Source: Candidatus Poribacteria bacterium
GTDB taxonomy: Bacteria > Poribacteria > WGA-4E > PCPOR2b
DNA length: 50,369 bases
Reading direction: 5' to 3'
Assembly: GCA_022822785.1 (NCBI GenBank)
Contig: JAJEAL010000039.1
Coordinates: 1-50,369, forward strand
A model generated the notes under the pieces. It ran no database searches. It was not told the DNA's origin and saw nothing but the letters and a program-made list of their open reading frames with translations. Below are positions 4,219 to 27,537 of this stretch, piece by piece. Position 1 is the stretch's first letter. Every line of letters starts with the position of its first letter. The translations under genes and the position numbers were made by a program.

Positions 4219-5448
4219 ATGAAAGGAAGTGCGTCATCGCCTGATTCTGCTCCTACAATGCCCCAAAACCCGCTCCTCGTCCCCGAACTGCCAAACCCGA
4301 CTGTAGCCCGGCTCTTGCAGTGTCCAACCGATGAACTTGCACGTGCCACCCGCCCTAGCTTCCTCGCCACTGACCACTCCCCTGTGCAGTGGTCTGAGAA
4401 CGATTGGGACCGATTAGAAGCAAATCGTGAGCCCCTATTCGATATGTCGGCGGTTACTGCACAATTCGACCGCGCCAATTATTTGAGGGATGGGTATGCC
4501 GTGCTGAAAGAGGTCATGATGCCCAAAACGGTTGAGGAGTGGACAGAGGCGTTGAAATATGGTCAGGAACTCAACGACAGATTGCTAAAGTCAGATTGGA
4601 CACAGATCGACTGGCACACCCTCGGCCGAACCCCACCGACAAAATTGCTCACAATCGAGGATATTAATAATGCTATTGGAGGAAGCCAGAGGGTGCCGCA
4701 GTCCGATGATGAGGCGGGCGTGAAAACGTTGCGACAGCACAGTGTATTTGCTGAATATTTTCCGGCAGGGCATGTTCCGTACTTGATGAACGTTCTGACA
4801 CATCCGCAGATGCTTCAGCTTCAACGGGTGAGTCTCGGCAGCGACGCCATCTATTTCGATCATAATCAGCTGTTAACGAGACCGCCGGGCTATCCCGGCG
4901 GTGCGTGGCACAGCCATAAAATCGGCGGCGGAGCGGATAACTGCGGTGTGGCGAGCTTGTCAGCGTATCAAGGACAACCGAATTTCAATCTCACGCTCTG
5001 CTACCCCCAAGGCTTTGAAGCCAAGGACGATGGCGGTCTGAAAATTATTCGGGGGAGCCACCTCTTTCGGGATCCAGCGGGCTGTTGGGCAGATACCGAC
5101 GAAGAGATGCGGGCGGGCTGGTTGGCAGGTCGGAAGCATCCCGTAACTTCGGAACCGCTTCAGATTGAATATATCTCGCTGCCTCCGGGGTCAGTTATCT
5201 TGTGTCTGTCACACGCTGCTCATGCTGTAGCACCCAAAGCGTTAGACAGGACGACTCGTTGGTGCTCGCTTTTCTGCTACAAGAAACCGGGCGATGTTAC
5301 CGGTTACGCCCAACCGTCTCATTCGGTCCCGCCGGTATGGGCGATGAAGGCGCAGCGGGGTGAGTTGCCAGCTGTTCTCACTGAGCTGTTTCGACCGAGC
5401 TACGACAAAGAGCTGACGGGTGGTCGAACAGTAGACTCACAGGCTTGA
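4219..5448 (+). CDS. PhyH-like protein with HxH in place of HxD
   Basis: A 409-residue protein, longer than ordinary PhyH members because of an N-terminal extension of about 80 residues. The fold signature is present: YLRDGYAVL near 88-96, CYPQGF near 261, GSHLF near 279-283, LPPGS at 321-325, and His332/His335 with TTRW at 345-348 for the distal His and the 2-oxoglutarate Arg. The expected HxD reads AWHSHK, so the acidic ligand is His233. The same change occurs in the neighbour ending two bases away on the other strand (WHAH), which argues for a real subfamily rather than a mutation. AGAGAGG precedes the ATG. Metal content and reaction are uncertain. Confidence 0.85.
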   Translation: MKGSASSPDSAPTMPQNPLLVPELPNPTVARLLQCPTDELARATRPSFLATDHSPVQWSENDWDRLEANREPLFDMSAVTAQFDRANYLRDGYAVLKEVMMPKTVEEWTEALKYGQELNDRLLKSDWTQIDWHTLGRTPPTKLLTIEDINNAIGGSQRVPQSDDEAGVKTLRQHSVFAEYFPAGHVPYLMNVLTHPQMLQLQRVSLGSDAIYFDHNQLLTRPPGYPGGAWHSHKIGGGADNCGVASLSAYQGQPNFNLTLCYPQGFEAKDDGGLKIIRGSHLFRDPAGCWADTDEEMRAGWLAGRKHPVTSEPLQIEYISLPPGSVILCLSHAAHAVAPKALDRTTRWCSLFCYKKPGDVTGYAQPSHSVPPVWAMKAQRGELPAVLTELFRPSYDKELTGGRTVDSQA

Positions 5449-5450
5449 TC

Positions 5451-6557
5451 TCAGTTCAGGGAATTGTCCGCTTCGAACACGCGACGTTCTGCATCGGAGA
5501 GTTTTCCTGCCGCCGCAGTACGTTCTACCCAATGGGTGGGGATGCCATTTGTCCATTTGGCTGGAGAGGCTTGGGGATCTGGCGTTCGATACGCCATCAA
5601 CAATCCCCACCGGGTAGGTGCTTCCGGCGGACGACGTTGGACGTGATGCGGCATATGATGGACAAATGAAACCATGCTCCCAGGGGGCAGCGATAGGTGT
5701 ACAATTTCCAACGGCTTGCCTGTGATGGCGTGGGTCTTTCCCTTCAGCCAGTTTGCTTGCATGTCGGCGTCTTCATCGGGTCGCTCTGTATTCCATTTAA
5801 ACGGGATACGGTAAAGATGAGATCCGGGGATAACCCCAAGCTCTGCACCATCGCCACTCTCTGCCCCTTCTGGATAACACAGCGTTCGGATGCACTGCTG
5901 CTGTAGAAACTCAGGGGTCAGTTCCTTACCGGTGCCGATGGGGTCTTCCACCTCGTACTGTCCATCTCGATATTGATGGGCGTGCCAGCGTCTCCCGCGC
6001 GATCCCGCCGCTCGGTTAAGCATCAAACAGTGGTCGAGTACGAAACGGTCACCAAAAAGCTTTCTGAACAGTTCCATCATCTGCGGATGGGCTGTGGTGG
6101 CATCCATAATGAAGTCATCGTATCCAGCTGGGAAATATTCCGGCATAACTCCCAGCGAATCGTACCCGCGTGTGACTAATGCAGGTCCCGGGCCGAGAAG
6201 TCCGTGTTCGTGCATGTATGCACGAACCTCTGCTCTGAGAAAGCCGGGCATCTGCTCCGATCCGCCGCAGCAAGATTCCAGGAACTCTGGGTTGATTTGC
6301 TCCGGCGGTGGCGGTGCCAATCCACGCGCCTCAAAGTCGATCGCAGCCCAGTCGGTATCCATAAGGATGCAGTCGTTCATGTACTGCAATTTCTGTAGAC
6401 TCGCAGTAAACTGCTTTCGTCCGGCGTCGGTCAGTATGCCTTCCCACACCCAAAATCCTTCCTGCTCGAAGGTCGTGCGGTCAAAGGCATCCAACACCTC
6501 CGGGCGCAGCAGATTATCCACACGCGCTGGTTGTTTTTGTTCCCTTGAGTTCTTCAT
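5451..6557 (-). CDS. PhyH-like protein with HxH in place of HxD (paralogue)
   Basis: A 368-residue protein from the ATG at 6557; an upstream TTG in frame is a poor start. It is paralogous to the convergent gene at 4219-5448: both share EYFPAG, HPQM, WHxH, TLCYP, GSHL, LPPGS, a His-rich distal site and TRW. Here the metal motif is H192-A-H194 (RRWHAHQYRDG), the distal site is VHHMPHHV (about 299-306) and the Arg is in TRW (about 316). A cysteine pair (ESCCGGS) near 96 is unusual. The two stop codons are two bases apart, so transcripts from the pair overlap if termination is not immediate. A good minus-strand promoter lies at 6626-6655. Substrate unknown. Confidence 0.85.
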   Translation of the reverse strand: MKNSREQKQPARVDNLLRPEVLDAFDRTTFEQEGFWVWEGILTDAGRKQFTASLQKLQYMNDCILMDTDWAAIDFEARGLAPPPPEQINPEFLESCCGGSEQMPGFLRAEVRAYMHEHGLLGPGPALVTRGYDSLGVMPEYFPAGYDDFIMDATTAHPQMMELFRKLFGDRFVLDHCLMLNRAAGSRGRRWHAHQYRDGQYEVEDPIGTGKELTPEFLQQQCIRTLCYPEGAESGDGAELGVIPGSHLYRIPFKWNTERPDEDADMQANWLKGKTHAITGKPLEIVHLSLPPGSMVSFVHHMPHHVQRRPPEAPTRWGLLMAYRTPDPQASPAKWTNGIPTHWVERTAAAGKLSDAERRVFEADNSLN

Positions 6558-6625
6558 TGTCTCTTTGTCCTCAATTTTGTATACTGAACAGGCCGAAGAT
6601 GGACAGTTCCTCAAAAAACATCTTC

Positions 6626-11505: not shown

Positions 11506-14500
11506 GTGCGAATTATCAAAACTGCAAAACAACACCGTCCGTATCCGAAAAAACGGGTGTCTTCTAAACTATTGTCTAAAAACGGGCGTTGTTTATTCAT
11601 CCTTATTTTTCTGTTCCAATTTTTCCCGTCTTTTTTTCTTATCCAAGGTGGATCGCTCGCTTGGGCGTTACGCTTTCCAACCCCGCCGCAGGTGGTTGAT
11701 GACGTCAACGAGGATACTGTTTTTAGTCCGAATGGAGATGGTATACAAGATACGCTCCTCATTAGCTTTATTACCGATGGTGAGCTCGGTGATTACCGGA
11801 TCATCATTGATACCCATGGTGCCAGTGGGGTTGGTACACCCGATGGTCGATTTATTCCTGAAGAGGATTGGGTGGTCACCGGGGAACTCGGTGCCGGTAT
11901 TCATGAGGAGGACGATCCAAGAGCCATTCGCAAGGCGTGGGATGGGAAGGATTTTTCAAGCGAGCAGGAAGCGAAAAGTCCGCAACCGCTCAGCGATGGC
12001 ACGTATCGGATTAAAGTCGAAATTGATGGAATTCCCAATGACAGCGTCAATAGTGCGGAGACAGGCTACGTTGCACGAGAGTTTTCAGTGATAATCGACA
12101 ATACGCCGCCGCAATTATCAGCTACGGTTTCCCAATATGATTTGTCGCCGAATGGCGACTCTATCAGGGATGCAACACAGATCCGCTACGGCCTGTCTGA
12201 GAATTTAGCGGAGCTTGAATTGAAATTTACTAATCCGTCAGATCAACCGGCAGTGCCTCTGCCCCACCTTACGGAAGGGAACCACTCATTCATTTGGACG
12301 GGAATTGATGGCTTGGGCACGCTGCTAAGTGACGGTACCTACATTGTCCAACTGTATGGTAGCGATAAGGGTGGTAACGTGGGAACTTTTGGAATTGATA
12401 CTATCCAAATTGACACAGAGCCGCCAACCATTGCTGAGATAACGCCGAATCGGAACTCGTTTCAAAACACATCCATTGAACAGATTGAAGCAATATTCGA
12501 CGCAAGTGGCGGCAGTTCTCTTGATTTTTCTTCAATTTTCACGAAGATTGTCTTAGAAAATGCGACTGGCACACAAATTAATGGGATTCTTAGTCATAGT
12601 GAAAATGCGAGCCGCATCACATTGACGCTCAATCAACCACTCGATTCCAGTGACGAGAATGGCGTTTACACAATCAGTGTTTCTGGCGCAGACGAAGCGG
12701 GCAATATTGTTCAAGATGAAGTCAATTTTACCTTTGACAACATCGCACCGACAATAGCCACTATCACAACCGATGCCGGTGAGTTGACTCCCGATGCAAG
12801 TACCATTACACAATTTACTTTCGTTGATGTGACCCTGGCGGACAATGTTGATTCTAACGTGAACTTTAGTGCTTCGACGATTCGCTTGAATACTCTTGAA
12901 GGAGCCCTAGTAGCTGGGACTCAACGTCAACTTGGAGAAAACGGCATCCGTTGGACGCCGGGCTTTCCGCTAGCAACCGATGGGTCTGACGACGGGAGGT
13001 ACACCATCACGGTGCAACCTCGAGACCGTGCAGAAAATGAAGTTGAAATCCAGATCCCCTTCATCTACGATACCCAAGCCCCCGAGTTGGTTTCGCTCAC
13101 ATCGGATGCGGCGGTTCAACTGAACTCTTCGGCGGGCGCGAAAACCTTCCTTAACAGCTCTTTATCTCTAATAACAGCCACCTTCAATGATGGAAGTGGC
13201 AGCGGCATCGATTTTAGTGCAACAACGATTGAAATGGTTCGTTTCGAGGGTGACCTTATCGTTACACAAGTTCCAGTTCAAGGTGCCTTAATGCCCGATG
13301 AAGATAATGACACGCTACAATTTCGATTAATCCAGCCGTTGGAGCACCACACTGGGACTCAGGATGGCACTTATCGTATTCGTGTGATATTGACGGATAA
13401 GGCAGGCAATTTTCAGACAGAAACCTTTGAACTTGCTTACGATACGCAAGTTCCTGCCATTGTTTCGACAACTCCGGCTGAAAATGAAGCCGTCTCTTTC
13501 CTGTCACAGGTGTCGGTTGTTCTGAACACCGCTAGTGGGATTGATTTTTCTGCCACCGGCGTGCAGTTACTCCGTGCCGATGGCAGTCAGGTGAATGCGG
13601 AGGTCCGCAATAACGGTAGAGACACAGTATTCCTGACATTGACAGAGTCACTGGCAATTGACGGATCAGAGGATGGCGAATATACTATTGAAATCACTCC
13701 GGTAGATGGTGCAAACAATGTCGGGGTGACCGTTCGTCGCCAATTTTTTGTCGCATCGCGGAGGCCGGAAATTCGTTTGAATACCCCTACTGGAACCCGA
13801 ATCAATGATTTGACAACACTTGATGTACAACTGTTCGACTATATTGGCCCGGGACTTGACTTTTCTGAATCAAAGTCAACGGTAACAGTTAGCAGGAACG
13901 GGGTAGTCGTGGAAGCAAAACCCTTGATAATAGATAAAGATAATATGCGCCTTATCTGGACAGTTGATAGGTCTCTGTCTCGAGATGGTTCAGCGGATGG
14001 CGAATACACCGTCAGCGTTCAATATACAGATCTTATCGGCGCAGCACTCACGAAAGATTTTATTCTAACTTTCGATAGCCAGCCTCCAACAATCACCGTT
14101 GATTCTCACCCGCAGATTGCAAATCCCCTTACCGCAGACCAAATTGAAGTCCAATTTGAAGTGACTGACGATTTTGCAGGTGTGCAGGGAAGCGGATTTG
14201 ATGCTGCCGCATCAACCTTTGAGCTGTTTGATGTAAATGGTGCTACGGTTGACGGTGCACAGACGAGCGATGGGACAGGTAGGTTTGCGTTTCGCTCTAG
14301 GGTGCTTCCAGAAGGGGGCATGTATATCCTCGTTGTTACGCTAGTGGATCGAGCGGGCAACCGCAGTATCCCACTGCCGTTGATCTACGATGCCGAAGAG
14401 CCCACCATTGAAGCGGTAAGTCACATTGGACTGGGCACAACTGTCTCTAATGTGAGTGAATTTCTGAAGCGACTGGAAGCGACTGTTAGCGATATTGGCA

Positions 14501-17500
14501 CCGGTATTGATTTCGATCTGTCATCGATTCAGTTGCTGAACGCTGCAGGTGAGGTAGTCCCCGGCACATCATATCACGATGATGAAGGGACCATTGGATG
14601 GGAATTAAACACTCCGCTCACCCGCGAAGGTAACTTTGACGGTTTATACTCGCTCCGTGTTAGAGCTGTCGACAGGGCTGGGTACATCGAAGAAAAAACC
14701 TTTGTGCTGCGCTACGACACGCAGGTGCCTACTATTGATACCGCTTTTACTACAAAAAACGATGGGACTCCTATAGAGCTGACCGGAGCAGACGCTCAAT
14801 TGGTTACTTCTCCAATCAATCAGATTACCGTCAGATTCTCTGATGGAGCGGGCAGCGGTATAGATGTTTTGCAGACGACCGTAAACCTCATCGGCCCCGA
14901 AGGCACACCGGTTGGCACGAACCAGAGTGATAATGGGGTAGATACAGTTTACCTGTCGTTTAATCCGTTGCGTGCGGATGGAGCCAACGATGGGGCTTAT
15001 CGTATTCAGGTTACTCCCACCGATTTAGCGGGCAACACGCTCACAAGCCCGGTTGAGATTGCATTTTTCTACGGCACGCGCAAACCAGAAGTTACCTCTA
15101 CAACGCCCTCTGAATTTGCCTCTGTTACCCAGCTCACCGAAGTCAGTGTAATAGTGCAAGACCACAGTGGCGAAGGTATCGACTTCGATCGCACGACAAT
15201 TCGCTTGGAGGCGCCAGATCGATCGTCAGTTCTTGGCCATCAAACAGTAGAGGAAGCGCAATCGTCGGTTACTTGGGAATTGAATCAGCCGCTATCACGA
15301 GATGGTTCAGCGGACGGTGAATATACCATCCAGCTGTCGCTTGTCAATAATGCGGGGAACCGTGCCGATATCGAACGCACATTCGTCTACGATACGCTGA
15401 TTCCGACCGTTGTCTCCGTAACGGCAAATACTAGTCCGCCAACAGTGATTCCTGCAAGTGGATTGACAGCGATTGAGAGCTCGTTTAATGGATTGACTAT
15501 CAGGCTTTCTGATATGAATGGTGGAACGACACCGGTGAGCGGCATAGATCTGGTTGGTACTGATGTCCAGTTGATTGGTCCAGGAAATACACCACTCGGT
15601 ATCAACACCCGTGATGATGGGAGGGATGTCATCATCGTCAGTTTTGCCTCGCTGTTTCAGCCGGGGACCTACACACTCGAAATCACACCGCGGGATATGG
15701 CGGGAAATGTCTCAAGCCACGCGATTGAATATGAATTTAGTTTAGAATTGGGGTACGCCACCGTTTCTGCCGTGACAATTGGTGGTAAGATAGCGCCGGC
15801 TGAATATGTGAACCGGCTCGATGAAATTGTTGCAACGCTTGATGATGTCAGCGGCACCGGCTTAAATTTAGCGTCGGATGGTTCGACAATTGTCGTAACG
15901 GGGCCCGATGGTGTAGTTGAAGGAGTTCAAACCTCGCGAGGCACGAACCAGATTGCGTGGCGACCTTTGCAGCTCATCACAGATGGTTCAGCAGATGGCG
16001 TTTACACCGTCAGAATTACCCCTGTCAATAGCGGCGGCAGATTGGGGATACCAGCTCGGTATCAATTCACACTTGATACACAGGAGCCTGAAGTGACTTC
16101 AGTAACGCCCATAGACCTGGCGCAGCCGGTGTCTTACGTCGGTCAGCAGATTATCCAAATCGCTGCTCAAGTTGAGGATGTGGGACCAGCCGGTCTAGAG
16201 GTCGAAGACCAATACCTGCAACTGCTTGATGCCGGAGGCAATCCTGTACCAGCGATTCAATCCGATGATAGGGAATCTCAAATTTTTCTGACGCTTTCAC
16301 AGCCACTTACAGCCGACGGAAGCGACGATGGCATTTACACGGTCAATCTAGACTTGATGGACAAGGCGGGTAACCTGAACCCAATTTCGCATCAACTCGT
16401 TTATGATACCCAAGCCCCAACACTTATCAGTACCAGTCCAGCTGATGGTAGTCTCCGTAGTGACGATATTACATCGATTACAGCGCGTCTGAACGACCTT
16501 GGCGGCAGCGGTATTGATTTTGCCACCTCCACCTTGACGCTGCTAGATCCAGCCGGTATTCTAATTAACGGAGTGCAGAGCAACGATGGGAATCGAAGGC
16601 TAACATTACAAATTAATGGTCTTGTGACAGACGGCGGGTACACAATCCGTGTCGAGGCAATCGATCGCGCCGGCAACGGATCCAACACCCCGTTTGAGGC
16701 ACAGTTCACCTTCTCCTCCGGTATGCCAGTTGTAGTTGCAACCGTTCCCCAAACCACTCCCGCAGAAGAAGCGTTCACCAACGAACCGTTTCGTCACGTT
16801 TCGGTTGAGCTTCAATCGGAGGATGGTAGTGCCGATCGTTCTACGATTTCACTGCTTGCTCCCGATGGTACAGCAGTTCCGGGACAGCAGGCGCGTCAAG
16901 GAAAATTATTAATTTATCGACTCTTGCGGGAGCGCGCTACCGATGGTTCTGACGATGGTACTTATACTATCATAGTTGTGCCTGTCAATAGTGCGGGGCG
17001 CCAGGGAGTGCCGGAGCAGTTTGCCTTTGTTTACGATACTGTTGCACCCGAAGTGGTACCGGGCTCAATCCAACTGCTTGTCGCCGAACCGGATGTCAAT
17101 AATTCATTGGTTTCGGTCGGTGCGCTTATTACTGATGATGAACCAGGTTCAGGGGTGGATTGGGATAACCTTGATGCGTCATGGATTGCGCTTGATGATA
17201 TTAGACGGAGCCGTCAGGTTGATGGATCGCTCGCCACCGATGAGGACCAGGCGCTTTTACTAAACTTAATTATGCCGCTTGCTAGCGACGGAAGTCAAGA
17301 TGGTGTATATCAACTAATAATCGCTCCGAAGGACCGGGCGGGGAATACCACTGAACCCATTGAGTACCTCTTCTTCTACGATACAAGTGCCCCCACGATT
17401 GATACCGAGGCACTGTTCATTGATGGACAGCTGTTGCTGACGAATTCAAATGATCCGGATTACCCTTCGGCGACCAGCAAGAACGGGGGGATCGTCATTG

Positions 17501-18441
17501 ACGCAAAGTTCTCCGATATCAATCCGGATGGCAGCTTAGGGCTTGGTGTCGATTTGGTCAACTCGTCAATTGTTGTGCGCTCCCCTTCCGGGAACGATAT
17601 CAGCGGTACGACGACGCAAAATGGCACTGACAGCATCCGCTTCAAATCGGGCCCGCTTGATGAACAAGGCTTCTATCAAGTAACGATTACGAGTGTCGGT
17701 TTAGACATCGGTGCTCTCGGTGTCCAACCTACCGACTCGCTTACAACACAATTTCTCTTTGAGACGACCAAACCGGTCGTTGAACTAACAGACCTAGTTG
17801 GAGAAACGACCTTTGAAGATGAACCGTTGCCATTACAAGGAACAGCGCGTGATTCGTCAGAGGACGATATCCCTGCGTCTGGAGTCGCATTTGTTGAGGT
17901 TGTTGGAACCGGACCCGATGGGCAACCAATCACGCCGGTCGCTGCAAAAGATGATAGTGAAGAAGAGGAAGATCCGTGGACCCGCTGGACCGTCGATTTT
18001 CTGCCTTCGCAATCTGGTGAATACAATCTTGATGTTCGCGTCACCGATCGCGCCGGCAATATCGGTCTTCACGATGCCACGACCGTCAACTTCTCAGTGT
18101 CGTTGATCTTCAAAGGCCCAACCTATGTTTGGCCCAATCCACTCAGTCTCTCAAGGCGCTCAAATGGCGAGGTTGCTAACTTCTCCTTTGAGGTCAATGT
18201 CCCTGGCGGGGAAGGAGCGCGGATCGTCCTGAGCATCTATGATTTCGCAGGTGACTTGGTATACGAAGAAAGCTATGACCCATTGGGCATTGGTAGGAGC
18301 GATGATGAAGTCATGTGGAATCTAACTAATCAGTCCGGCATGGATGTCGCTCGCGGAATCTATATCTTCCGTTTAGAAGCAGAGGATGTGGCGACAAGCA
18401 ACCGCACGAATGCGGTCGGAAAGATTGTTGTTGTGGAGTAA
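11506..18441 (+). CDS. Giant exported protein of about 19 Ig-like repeats with a FlgD/T9SS-like C-terminus
   Basis: A 2311-residue protein starting at a GTG with AGGGGG seven bases upstream. A basic n-region and a hydrophobic stretch (about 29-50) ending SLAWA give a probable signal peptide cleaved near residue 55. Two SPNGD motifs (FSPNGDGIQD and LSPNGDSIRD) lie in the first 220 residues. About 19 modules of roughly 105 residues follow, marked by DGSxDGxYTIxVxPxDxAGN and FxYDTxxPxI; these resemble bacterial Ig-like/cadherin-type beta-sandwiches, and the acidic DGSxDG turns suggest calcium binding. The last 108 residues (VWPNPLSL, LSIYDFAGDLVY, GIYIFRLEAE, KIVVVE) look like the FlgD-Ig or type-A T9SS sorting domain. 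I see no cysteine after the signal peptide. It is likely secreted or surface-anchored; adhesion is a guess. The PorV-like gene follows directly. Confidence 0.88.
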   Translation: MRIIKTAKQHRPYPKKRVSSKLLSKNGRCLFILIFLFQFFPSFFLIQGGSLAWALRFPTPPQVVDDVNEDTVFSPNGDGIQDTLLISFITDGELGDYRIIIDTHGASGVGTPDGRFIPEEDWVVTGELGAGIHEEDDPRAIRKAWDGKDFSSEQEAKSPQPLSDGTYRIKVEIDGIPNDSVNSAETGYVAREFSVIIDNTPPQLSATVSQYDLSPNGDSIRDATQIRYGLSENLAELELKFTNPSDQPAVPLPHLTEGNHSFIWTGIDGLGTLLSDGTYIVQLYGSDKGGNVGTFGIDTIQIDTEPPTIAEITPNRNSFQNTSIEQIEAIFDASGGSSLDFSSIFTKIVLENATGTQINGILSHSENASRITLTLNQPLDSSDENGVYTISVSGADEAGNIVQDEVNFTFDNIAPTIATITTDAGELTPDASTITQFTFVDVTLADNVDSNVNFSASTIRLNTLEGALVAGTQRQLGENGIRWTPGFPLATDGSDDGRYTITVQPRDRAENEVEIQIPFIYDTQAPELVSLTSDAAVQLNSSAGAKTFLNSSLSLITATFNDGSGSGIDFSATTIEMVRFEGDLIVTQVPVQGALMPDEDNDTLQFRLIQPLEHHTGTQDGTYRIRVILTDKAGNFQTETFELAYDTQVPAIVSTTPAENEAVSFLSQVSVVLNTASGIDFSATGVQLLRADGSQVNAEVRNNGRDTVFLTLTESLAIDGSEDGEYTIEITPVDGANNVGVTVRRQFFVASRRPEIRLNTPTGTRINDLTTLDVQLFDYIGPGLDFSESKSTVTVSRNGVVVEAKPLIIDKDNMRLIWTVDRSLSRDGSADGEYTVSVQYTDLIGAALTKDFILTFDSQPPTITVDSHPQIANPLTADQIEVQFEVTDDFAGVQGSGFDAAASTFELFDVNGATVDGAQTSDGTGRFAFRSRVLPEGGMYILVVTLVDRAGNRSIPLPLIYDAEEPTIEAVSHIGLGTTVSNVSEFLKRLEATVSDIGTGIDFDLSSIQLLNAAGEVVPGTSYHDDEGTIGWELNTPLTREGNFDGLYSLRVRAVDRAGYIEEKTFVLRYDTQVPTIDTAFTTKNDGTPIELTGADAQLVTSPINQITVRFSDGAGSGIDVLQTTVNLIGPEGTPVGTNQSDNGVDTVYLSFNPLRADGANDGAYRIQVTPTDLAGNTLTSPVEIAFFYGTRKPEVTSTTPSEFASVTQLTEVSVIVQDHSGEGIDFDRTTIRLEAPDRSSVLGHQTVEEAQSSVTWELNQPLSRDGSADGEYTIQLSLVNNAGNRADIERTFVYDTLIPTVVSVTANTSPPTVIPASGLTAIESSFNGLTIRLSDMNGGTTPVSGIDLVGTDVQLIGPGNTPLGINTRDDGRDVIIVSFASLFQPGTYTLEITPRDMAGNVSSHAIEYEFSLELGYATVSAVTIGGKIAPAEYVNRLDEIVATLDDVSGTGLNLASDGSTIVVTGPDGVVEGVQTSRGTNQIAWRPLQLITDGSADGVYTVRITPVNSGGRLGIPARYQFTLDTQEPEVTSVTPIDLAQPVSYVGQQIIQIAAQVEDVGPAGLEVEDQYLQLLDAGGNPVPAIQSDDRESQIFLTLSQPLTADGSDDGIYTVNLDLMDKAGNLNPISHQLVYDTQAPTLISTSPADGSLRSDDITSITARLNDLGGSGIDFATSTLTLLDPAGILINGVQSNDGNRRLTLQINGLVTDGGYTIRVEAIDRAGNGSNTPFEAQFTFSSGMPVVVATVPQTTPAEEAFTNEPFRHVSVELQSEDGSADRSTISLLAPDGTAVPGQQARQGKLLIYRLLRERATDGSDDGTYTIIVVPVNSAGRQGVPEQFAFVYDTVAPEVVPGSIQLLVAEPDVNNSLVSVGALITDDEPGSGVDWDNLDASWIALDDIRRSRQVDGSLATDEDQALLLNLIMPLASDGSQDGVYQLIIAPKDRAGNTTEPIEYLFFYDTSAPTIDTEALFIDGQLLLTNSNDPDYPSATSKNGGIVIDAKFSDINPDGSLGLGVDLVNSSIVVRSPSGNDISGTTTQNGTDSIRFKSGPLDEQGFYQVTITSVGLDIGALGVQPTDSLTTQFLFETTKPVVELTDLVGETTFEDEPLPLQGTARDSSEDDIPASGVAFVEVVGTGPDGQPITPVAAKDDSEEEEDPWTRWTVDFLPSQSGEYNLDVRVTDRAGNIGLHDATTVNFSVSLIFKGPTYVWPNPLSLSRRSNGEVANFSFEVNVPGGEGARIVLSIYDFAGDLVYEESYDPLGIGRSDDEVMWNLTNQSGMDVARGIYIFRLEAEDVATSNRTNAVGKIVVVE
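11995..18063 (+). repeat. Tandem Ig-like module array inside the giant gene
   Basis: Nineteen occurrences of the GxYxIxVxxxDxAGN strand pair can be counted, spaced by about 300-330 bases. The modules are diverged at the protein level, but some keep similar DNA: cgagatggttcagcgga occurs at about 13980 and again at about 15298. Two adjacent variants of the turn, DGSADG and DGSDDG, recur. This suggests old duplication with limited recent conversion. Confidence 0.8.
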
Positions 18442-25702: not shown

Positions 25703-26581
25703 ATGGACAACACTAAATATGTCATGTCCGACGAAGAAAAGTATTTTTTTGACCTCACAGGTTATCTTATCGTGCGTGATGCCTTAACCGTAGAGGAAGT
25801 GGACAAATGTAATGCAGCGATTGACCACTACGCTAACAAGATTCGCGCCCGTTCGGTTGACGATGGCGGGCTTGCTCGTGGGTCGTCAACGCTTCTCGGA
25901 GAAACCGGACGATTAGAACTGACAGGGATGTTGGGATGGGAGAAACCGTATCGTGAACCGTTCCGCGAACTCCTAGTTCATCCGGTGCTTGTCTCTCGCT
26001 TAAATGGAATGTGTGGAAAGGGATTCCGCCTCGACCACGGCCCGTTGATGATTGGAGCGACAGCGGGAACGGAAGGCCATCAACTGCACGGGTCAGGAGA
26101 GCCCTTCAGTCCCGCGGTGTGGTATCATCAGCAAAACGGCGCTATCTATTGCCGAGGGGTCACTGTGGCGTGGCAGCTCACCGACGTTAATGAAGGTGAT
26201 GGTGGGTTTGCGGTTGTTCCCGGCAGCCATAAATCCTGCGAACCCACACCCGCAGGCATCCGGTCTGTAGAAGACGACATGGGGCTGACCGTGCAGCCTG
26301 TGATGAAGGCAGGAGATGTCCTTTTCTTTGCGGAGACTGCCACCCATGGCACACTCCCGTGGAAGGGAAAGGGTCAACGGCGTTCTATCCTTTACAAATA
26401 CGCTTCCCGTGGCGTCGCTCGCTCAGTGGGTCAATTCTTTACACCTGAAGCGCGTTTCGGCGAGTGGACGAAAACGCTCTCACCTGAACAACATGCTGTG
26501 CTCTATGGTCCAGGCGTTCACACGGGGGGCAAACTTCCCTTACTCGAATCCGATGGAAAGAAAACTTGGGTGGTGGAATAA
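25703..26581 (+). CDS. PhyH-like protein with HxQ in the metal position (first of a tandem pair)
   Basis: A 292-residue PhyH-family protein beginning with YFFDLTGYLIVRDAL. The core is recognisable: VTVAWQLTDVNEGDGGFAVVPGSHK (150s-170s, quoted in part), GDVLFFAETATHGTLPW with distal His215, and QRRSILYKY for the Arg. By spacing to VTVAW, the HxD motif aligns with YHQQNG (H142-Q-Q144), so the Asp ligand would be Gln. An earlier LHGSGEP (His129) is also conserved with the next gene. AGGAG is about nine bases before the ATG. The next gene is a close paralogue with the same features, so the pair arose by tandem duplication. Catalytic competence is uncertain. Confidence 0.85.
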   Translation: MDNTKYVMSDEEKYFFDLTGYLIVRDALTVEEVDKCNAAIDHYANKIRARSVDDGGLARGSSTLLGETGRLELTGMLGWEKPYREPFRELLVHPVLVSRLNGMCGKGFRLDHGPLMIGATAGTEGHQLHGSGEPFSPAVWYHQQNGAIYCRGVTVAWQLTDVNEGDGGFAVVPGSHKSCEPTPAGIRSVEDDMGLTVQPVMKAGDVLFFAETATHGTLPWKGKGQRRSILYKYASRGVARSVGQFFTPEARFGEWTKTLSPEQHAVLYGPGVHTGGKLPLLESDGKKTWVVE

Positions 26582-26676
26582 TACCCCATCAACGTTCGCT
26601 ACCACCCGCCGTGGATGGAGCTTATGGATTATTGACAATCAGAATCAATTTGAACTGCGAAATGGAGATATGCGAG

Positions 26677-27537
26677 ATGGACAAGCGTGAACGTTACTTC
26701 TGGGACATCACAGGATACCTTATTGTTAGCGATGTATTGACAACCGATGAAATTGCAGCGGCCAATGAAGCGATTGACTATTATGCAGACCAAATTTATA
26801 TTGGCAAACCCAACGAAGGTGCCCGGGATTCTCAGGCACTGCGTGGCACCGAACACCGCGCCCTGCACGGTCTGCTTGAGTTAGACGAACCGTACTGTAT
26901 CCCTTTCCGTAAGATGCTCGTGCATCCACAAATCATCATGCGCCTCAATGTAATGTGTGGGAAAGGTTTCCGATTCGACCACGGCCCTTGGGTGACCGAC
27001 AGTGTAAAGGGCACTGAAGGGCTAACACTGCATGGACAAGGTGAGCCACACAGGCCCTACGTCGCTTATCACCACCAGAATAACAGGATGCACTGTGGCG
27101 GGGTAACTGTTACTTGGCAGTTGTCTGACATCAATGCCGGCGATGGTGGATTTGCCTGTGTACCCGGCAGCCACAAATCTAAATTCCCCATGCCGCACGG
27201 TGTACGAACCTGTGACGATGATATGGGCGTGGTCATTCAACCAGAGATGAAGGCAGGCGACGTGCTTTTCTTTATGGATGGTGCACAAACACACGGCACG
27301 CTCCGGTGGCAGGGCGAACATCGACGCCGATCGGTGCTCTTCAAATATGCTGACCGGACCTCCGTCCGCACAGGGGTCGCAAGAGCAATCGCACCCCCAG
27401 AAACCTATTGGGGGGAAGAGCTTGTTGAAGGCATGACAGAAGAACAACGCGCTGTTATGCATGGACCATGCTCATCGCTCCAGACTACCGCCCTGACGGT
27501 GGATAGAGATGGTACAGTACGTGTCGAGGAGGGCTAG
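26677..27537 (+). CDS. PhyH-like protein with HxQ in the metal position (second of a tandem pair)
   Basis: A 286-residue paralogue of the preceding gene. I chose the ATG at 26677 (MDKRERYFWDITGYL; GGAG nine bases upstream) because it aligns with the paralogue's start; upstream in-frame starts overlap the previous gene and add a non-conserved leader. The shared stretches are MCGKGFR, DHGP, GTEG, LHGxGEP, YHxQN, VTVxWQL, GDGGFA, VPGSHKS, MKAGDVLFF and THGTL. The metal motif is H132-H-Q134, again without an acidic residue; distal His206 and HRRRSVLFKY follow. There is no clear promoter between the two genes, so they are probably co-transcribed. Confidence 0.85.
   Translation: MDKRERYFWDITGYLIVSDVLTTDEIAAANEAIDYYADQIYIGKPNEGARDSQALRGTEHRALHGLLELDEPYCIPFRKMLVHPQIIMRLNVMCGKGFRFDHGPWVTDSVKGTEGLTLHGQGEPHRPYVAYHHQNNRMHCGGVTVTWQLSDINAGDGGFACVPGSHKSKFPMPHGVRTCDDDMGVVIQPEMKAGDVLFFMDGAQTHGTLRWQGEHRRRSVLFKYADRTSVRTGVARAIAPPETYWGEELVEGMTEEQRAVMHGPCSSLQTTALTVDRDGTVRVEEG

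Follow-up and report, generated by a model that had tools for sequence, protein, structure and literature searches.

Genes A and B

The window, a stretch of 50,369 nucleotides from a genome of the Poribacteria, a group of sponge-associated bacteria, contains two adjacent PhyH-like genes. Gene A (4219-5448, + strand) is read as an ORF of 409 residues with an ATG start. Gene B (5451-6557, - strand) encodes 368 residues counted from the ATG at 6557, or 387 from an alternative TTG start at 6614. The original prediction described the two as a convergent pair, and they do lie on opposite strands with their stop codons two bases apart. Their products are 31% identical, and both are longer than ordinary members of the family, exceeding the 213-position Pfam domain as well as the 252-residue proteins of group C introduced below. 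Orthologues of A, 67-86% identical, are found in 10 other genomes, and those of B, 70-94% identical, in Poribacteria.

The feature that drew attention to the pair was a histidine in place of the aspartate of the PhyH WHxD motif, and both open reading frames carry it on direct reading. The motif context is ...FDHNQLLTRPPGYPGGAWHSHKIG... and ...LPPGSVILCLSHAAHAVAPKALDRTTRW... in A, and ...LDHCLMLNRAAGSRGRRWHAHQYR... and ...LPPGSMVSFVHHMPHHVQRRPPEAPTRW... in B. In A the motif is WHSH (Trp230, His231, Ser232 and His233; 4906-4917, + strand), with His233 at the PhyH aspartate place. It is preceded by Asp214-His215 in beta-strand I (4858-4863) and followed by His335 at the distal metal-ligand position (5221-5223) and by Arg347 at the 2-oxoglutarate (2OG)-binding arginine position in beta-strand VIII (5257-5259), all on the + strand. 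In B, sequence and alignment together place the motif WHAH at Trp191, His192, Ala193 and His194 (5976-5987, - strand). Alignment gives Asp175-His176 (6030-6035) as the counterpart of Asp214-His215, His304 (5646-5648) as the distal ligand position and Arg316 (5610-5612) as the 2OG-type arginine, likewise on the - strand.

Family membership and fold

Gene A scores 19.3 bits against the Pfam PhyH model (PF05721), below the cut-off of 22, and B gives no match to it. The same model is exceeded by group C, a third HxH group of about 252 residues in the same genome, which scores 31-39 bits. The group C protein of this genome (L003, contig 46, 252 residues) and A are 46% identical in the core. Group C shares the G-S-H, G-x-V and H..R frame with PF05721, whereas A, B and C all read HxH against the HxD of the family, and A and B further differ in an N-terminal extension and inserts. 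Aligned with hhalign, the HxH family matches the HxD PhyH proteins of the same genome with a probability of 99.7, and H231, H233, H335 and R347 of A, with H192, H194, H304 and R316 of B, fall on the PhyH metal and 2OG positions. The multiple alignment places neither Asp nor Glu at the canonical carboxylate position in A or B, and the HxD...H pattern of a 2-His-1-carboxylate facial triad is replaced by HxH...H in 163/163 sequences. The 2OG arginine was sought on strand VIII, some 10-15 residues after the distal histidine; R347/R316 is invariant there, at a spacing of 12 in all 163.

AlphaFold2 models of A (mean pLDDT 70, pTM 0.75) and B (mean pLDDT 64, pTM 0.69) have many core blocks above 80 pLDDT, although the block 231-240 averages 58, which we count against the metal site proposed below. 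Both adopt the double-stranded beta-helix (DSBH) fold of 2OG/Fe oxygenases. A Foldseek search of the PDB, which bears out the predicted PhyH fold, returned E-values of 4e-10 (A) and 5.5e-9 (B), and the top matches (top 50) are 2OG/Fe oxygenases. TM-scores by query length are only 0.33-0.44, partly because of the low-confidence extensions and inserts. Single-sequence searches of the PDB with A and B gave nothing useful, and the ectoine hydroxylase EctD was reached only by profile.

Conservation and selection

Conservation was assessed over 163 distinct sequences from groups A, B and C, and all 163 keep the two histidines of the motif, the distal histidine and the 2OG-type arginine. In A numbering, W230, H231, H233, H335, V337, R347 and W348 never vary, nor do D214, H215, R221, Y262, R284, W301 and H307, while position 232 varies among S, A, T and G. 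For the distal ligand the original prediction had named the histidines at 332-335 in A and 300-305 in B. H335 (H304 in B) fits this role, being invariant, but H332 is Phe in six members and is thereby ruled out. A Cupin-type H-x-H...E site is also ruled out, as no conserved Glu follows the motif in the 163 sequences.

Among members of the genus, A has a pN/pS of 0.14-0.17 and B one of 0.06-0.12, and the codons of both motif histidines alternate between CAC and CAT. A and B are thus under purifying selection. The occurrence of the motif in many genomes, the low pN/pS and the synonymous exchange of the histidine codons rule out sequencing error or decay. The original prediction had argued for selection from the same change in both paralogues. 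The case for selection stands, on strict conservation, low pN/pS (0.06-0.17) and the CAC/CAT exchange, but not on two independent changes. In a further set from Latescibacterota-related genomes HxH is kept in the A, B and C groups with one exception, the B-type protein at L396:605-1765 (+), which reads RAH, its first motif histidine being Arg; it is the sole exception seen in the clade.

Origin and distribution

With the motif columns masked, the HxH proteins of groups A, B and C fall on one side of a branch, with SH-aLRT 93 in a tree of 74 rows and 87 in one of 62 rows, which rules out that A and B acquired the motif separately, in parallel. Since the three groups remain one clade under masking, their shared HxH descends from one ancestral event and has been kept since, and the simplest history is that Asp was replaced by His once, before the three groups diverged.

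The clade is surrounded by HxD relatives, and the nearest HxD branches are L166/L004, of the HQD type, on contig 92 of the same genome, and L388 from another genome. All differ from the HxH clade in their canonical HQD or HHD. The L388 protein (552-1382, + strand), which reads FDH...WHHD, nevertheless resembles the clade in its Asp-His on strand I and in its C-terminal block LxLPxGSV. It is a natural intermediate between the HxD and HxH types and useful for reverse mutagenesis. Two further PhyH-like proteins, at L309:429-1181 (+) with HMH and at L331:587-1660 (-) with HQH, lie outside the clade, so judging from sequence HxH may have had more than one origin.

The clade ranges over Poribacteria and Latescibacterota, with scattered members in Chloroflexota, Myxococcota, Abditibacteriota and Pseudomonadota. 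Group C was found in Poribacteria, Latescibacterota, Gemmatimonadota, Chloroflexi, Polyangiaceae, Abditibacteriaceae and Pseudomonadales; the 'Gemmatimonadota' genomes L137 and L151 are classed by the genome collection in the same phylum as the Latescibacteria genome L144. In a Chloroflexota sample group C occurs in 1/400 genomes, one already known, and the other six matches are weak and HxD-type where read, which points to sporadic transfer. Carriage by viruses or plasmids is ruled out, no relative having been found in viral contigs or in plasmids.

PhyH repertoire of the genome

This single draft genome of 5.6 Mb has at least 152 PF05721 matches, and only 1 of 14 control genomes has any. High PhyH numbers in Poribacteria were already noted in 2014 (PMC3909097). 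Among 156 PhyH-like ORFs aligned from the genome stretches listed by the search, 131 carry HxD, one of the reasons to regard the HxH of A and B as more than chance. HxH is unusual among PhyH proteins, as had been supposed. The other 25 lack HxD, the largest class being HxG.

The window itself holds a tandem pair of PhyH genes (25703-26581 and 26566-27537, + strand) where the HxD site reads LHGSGEP in the first and LHGQGEP in the second. An acidic residue stands a few residues ahead of the distal histidine, Glu in the first gene (FFAETATH) and Asp in the second (FFMDGAQTH). The pair belongs to a separate clade of 20-odd PhyH proteins of the genome, mostly without the HxD aspartate, and from their sequences the two are candidates for halogenase-like or relocated-carboxylate sites. 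Elsewhere in the window (11506-18441, + strand) lies a gene for a secreted-looking protein of 2311 residues with many similar repeats (SGIDFSATT...LTADGSxDGxYTI), ending in a block that resembles a FlgD-type C-terminal domain.

Gene neighbourhoods

Adjacency of A and B was seen only in the genus of the window (six genomes), in which the surrounding block is largely conserved. Its order is a PhyH gene, an aldo/keto reductase-like ORF, a second PhyH gene, a Gfo/Idh/MocA gene, A and B, followed to the right of B by a 519-residue ORF, a lactonase-like gene, a small ORF and a Gfo/Idh-like gene. In the window the lactonase-like neighbour encodes a 6-phosphogluconolactonase-like protein and is followed by the second Gfo/Idh-type protein. 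Outside the genus, one of the two genes mostly occurs without the other, and one further genome has both on separate contigs.

Group C lies near a sulfatase in 52/79 loci and near an HQD PhyH in 30/79, raw counts that ignore base rate and relatedness. In Latescibacterota-type loci, an HxG PhyH gene precedes group C, which is followed by genes for an MR_MLE dehydratase, a DHDPS-type aldolase and a sulfatase; in others group C accompanies ThuA, a 2-hydroxyacid dehydrogenase and an SGL lactonase. At L371 the HxG-type PhyH gene (720-1475) directly precedes the group C HxH gene (1495-2244, both + strand), and the same gene order recurs in L370, L372, L374 and L375. PhyH proteins with two different non-canonical metal motifs, HxG and HxH, thus apparently share one operon. 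Group C is also often a tandem duplicate, with two copies in 30/79 loci (L072, L074, L097, L104, L112 and others). The neighbours of group C and of the window genes weakly suggest catabolism of sugar acids from sulfated glycans, weakly because PhyH and sulfatase genes are very common in the genomes that carry the HxH family.

Proposed metal site

We propose, with a probability of about 0.5, that A and B belong to an old monophyletic branch of PhyH/EctD-type proteins with a putative three-histidine metal site, which would use Fe(II), O2 and a 2-oxo acid on a sugar-type substrate. The W-H-x-H motif, where beta-strand II ends, would supply two histidines of the facial triad, and beta-strand VII would supply one (H231, H233 and H335 in A; H192, H194 and H304 in B). 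The first and third would be the ancestral ligands, and the middle one would replace the ancestral aspartate through a single-base change, GAY to CAY, that subsequently became fixed. The strand VIII arginine (R347/R316) would still hold a 2-oxo acid in place on the metal, most likely 2OG, while D214 and H215 in strand I are probably pocket residues. O2 would be activated on the metal, most likely Fe(II), and the substrate oxidised would be small and polar, probably a sugar, a sugar acid or an O-alkylated or sulfated sugar; the genes would belong to catabolic islands. The motif and its conservation, the common origin of the clade, the PhyH homology and fold and the purifying selection are established, whereas we infer metal binding by three histidines, the use of iron and 2OG, catalysis and the class of substrate.

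Binding of 2OG is not assured. A serine two residues after the distal histidine contacts 2OG in PHYH (Ser266) and EctD (Ser250) (PMC2871039); the HxH family has an invariant valine (V337) at this place, and its His-Arg spacing is 12 rather than 11. The same two features would suit a PhyH-fold metal protein that does not carry out 2OG oxygenation, such as a Zn, Mn or Ni lyase, isomerase or hydrolase, or a three-histidine dioxygenase without 2OG whose ligand set is like that of cysteine dioxygenase. Three-histidine sites do occur in enzymes that do not use 2OG, and prolyl 4-hydroxylase D414H, with the same Asp-to-His swap in a related 2OG enzyme, has no detectable activity (PMC2767507). We nevertheless regard such a protein as unlikely, given the invariant 2OG-type arginine in its preserved PhyH frame and the 2OG enzymes that head both the fold and the profile matches.

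Another arrangement would keep a carboxylate at the metal by moving it, with H231, H335 and Asp214 of strand I as ligands. The site would then be a rearranged 2-His-1-carboxylate or a 3-His-1-Asp centre, and the second motif histidine a second-sphere residue or fourth ligand. The original prediction had named a conserved Asp or Glu at a canonical ligand position elsewhere as evidence against a three-histidine site. Asp214 (D175 in B) answers this description only in part: it is invariant in 163/163, but it does not stand at a canonical ligand position, and L388 has its counterpart too. Its strand parity matches that of Q129, R131 and N133 of EctD, in the register of the EctD profile alignment, and these three residues face the pocket. 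Within this genome (n=156) the D214 column is Asp or Glu in 17/25 proteins without HxD against 5/131 with it (Fisher 1e-12, kinship ignored). This made a carboxylate moved to Asp214 attractive at first. However, the tree has only about three losses of HxD, leaving 2-3 independent pairs, so relatedness removes the significance, and two other acidic columns are equally strongly associated with the loss. L388 weakens the case further: it carries both the D214-type and the canonical aspartate, so the former is not simply a replacement. Asp214 also lies 17 residues before the first histidine, probably toward the pocket mouth. We therefore keep this arrangement as a rival but consider it improbable; rather than a demonstrated ligand, D214 is more readily taken for a pocket residue of older date, one whose presence may have allowed the swap to be tolerated.

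That A and B are non-catalytic pseudoenzymes, or regulatory or binding proteins keeping the fold, would agree with the lost canonical carboxylate and with Pfam scores that leave A under the cut-off and B unmatched, but is very improbable, because the putative metal and 2OG residues are kept in 163/163 together with many other polar and aromatic residues that never vary, in contrast to an active site in decay, and purifying selection is strong.

That natural, widespread 2OG oxygenases work on a 3-His iron site, or on 3-His with a relocated Asp, is a reading that we advance only tentatively. It would mean that histidine can in evolution take the place of a carboxylate thought essential for 2OG hydroxylases, possibly with an altered reaction outcome. 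The swap is fixed across several phyla, and with the HxD sisters and L388 these proteins amount to naturally occurring mutants in both directions, forward and reverse, on which the purpose of the carboxylate can be studied. Annotation pipelines label the HxH proteins or miss them, as with B, although their metal chemistry may differ.

Comparison with known systems

Textbooks place a 2-His-1-carboxylate triad at the core of 2OG oxygenases. The natural exceptions known to us, the halogenases and AspH, drop the carboxylate, and we know of none that replaces it with histidine. A search of the open-access literature found no PhyH or 2OG oxygenase family described as carrying HxH in nature; as far as this literature was searched, the HxH branch is large and previously undescribed.

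The best solved-structure match of a profile of group C with A and B is EctD (3EMR, E 1e-7; 4MHR/4Q5O, 2e-6). In this alignment Y.H...iNykpGfkG..WHSD of EctD is matched to YDHCVSLNRPGGNKGIGWHSH (E 1e-7), with WHSD opposite WHSH and EctD H128 (by our count) opposite the family-invariant His215. EctD and the HxH family have in common the strand I, loop and W-H-S-x pattern, the distal histidine and arginine, and the DSBH fold. The metal ligands of EctD are His146, Asp148 and His248, and its conserved 2OG-candidate arginine is Arg259 (PMC2871039), a His-Arg spacing of 11 against 12 in the HxH family. The family further differs in WHSH for WHSD, in its invariant Asp214 and in Val for EctD Ser250, and it lacks the EctD signature F-x-WHSDFETWH-x-EDG-M/L-P. 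Against the ectoine hydroxylase model TIGR02408 (cut-off 336.5 bits) group C reaches at most 14 bits, and A and B give no match.

SyrB2-type halogenases (2FCT/2FCU), which read HxA, belong to the same fold family and are likewise without the HxD carboxylate. Fe/2OG halogenases have Gly or Ala in place of the HxD aspartate, whereas the HxH family has His in 163/163, with no obvious room for a halide. Cysteine dioxygenase and EgtB are non-haem Fe dioxygenases with a three-histidine facial triad, an arrangement only proposed for the HxH family, and no sequence relationship was found between them and the family. They do not use 2OG, whereas the HxH family keeps the Arg347 frame of 2OG enzymes. The D414H variant of prolyl 4-hydroxylase was engineered and is inactive, whereas the swap in the HxH family is natural, ancient and conserved, and activity in an HxH protein would therefore be informative.
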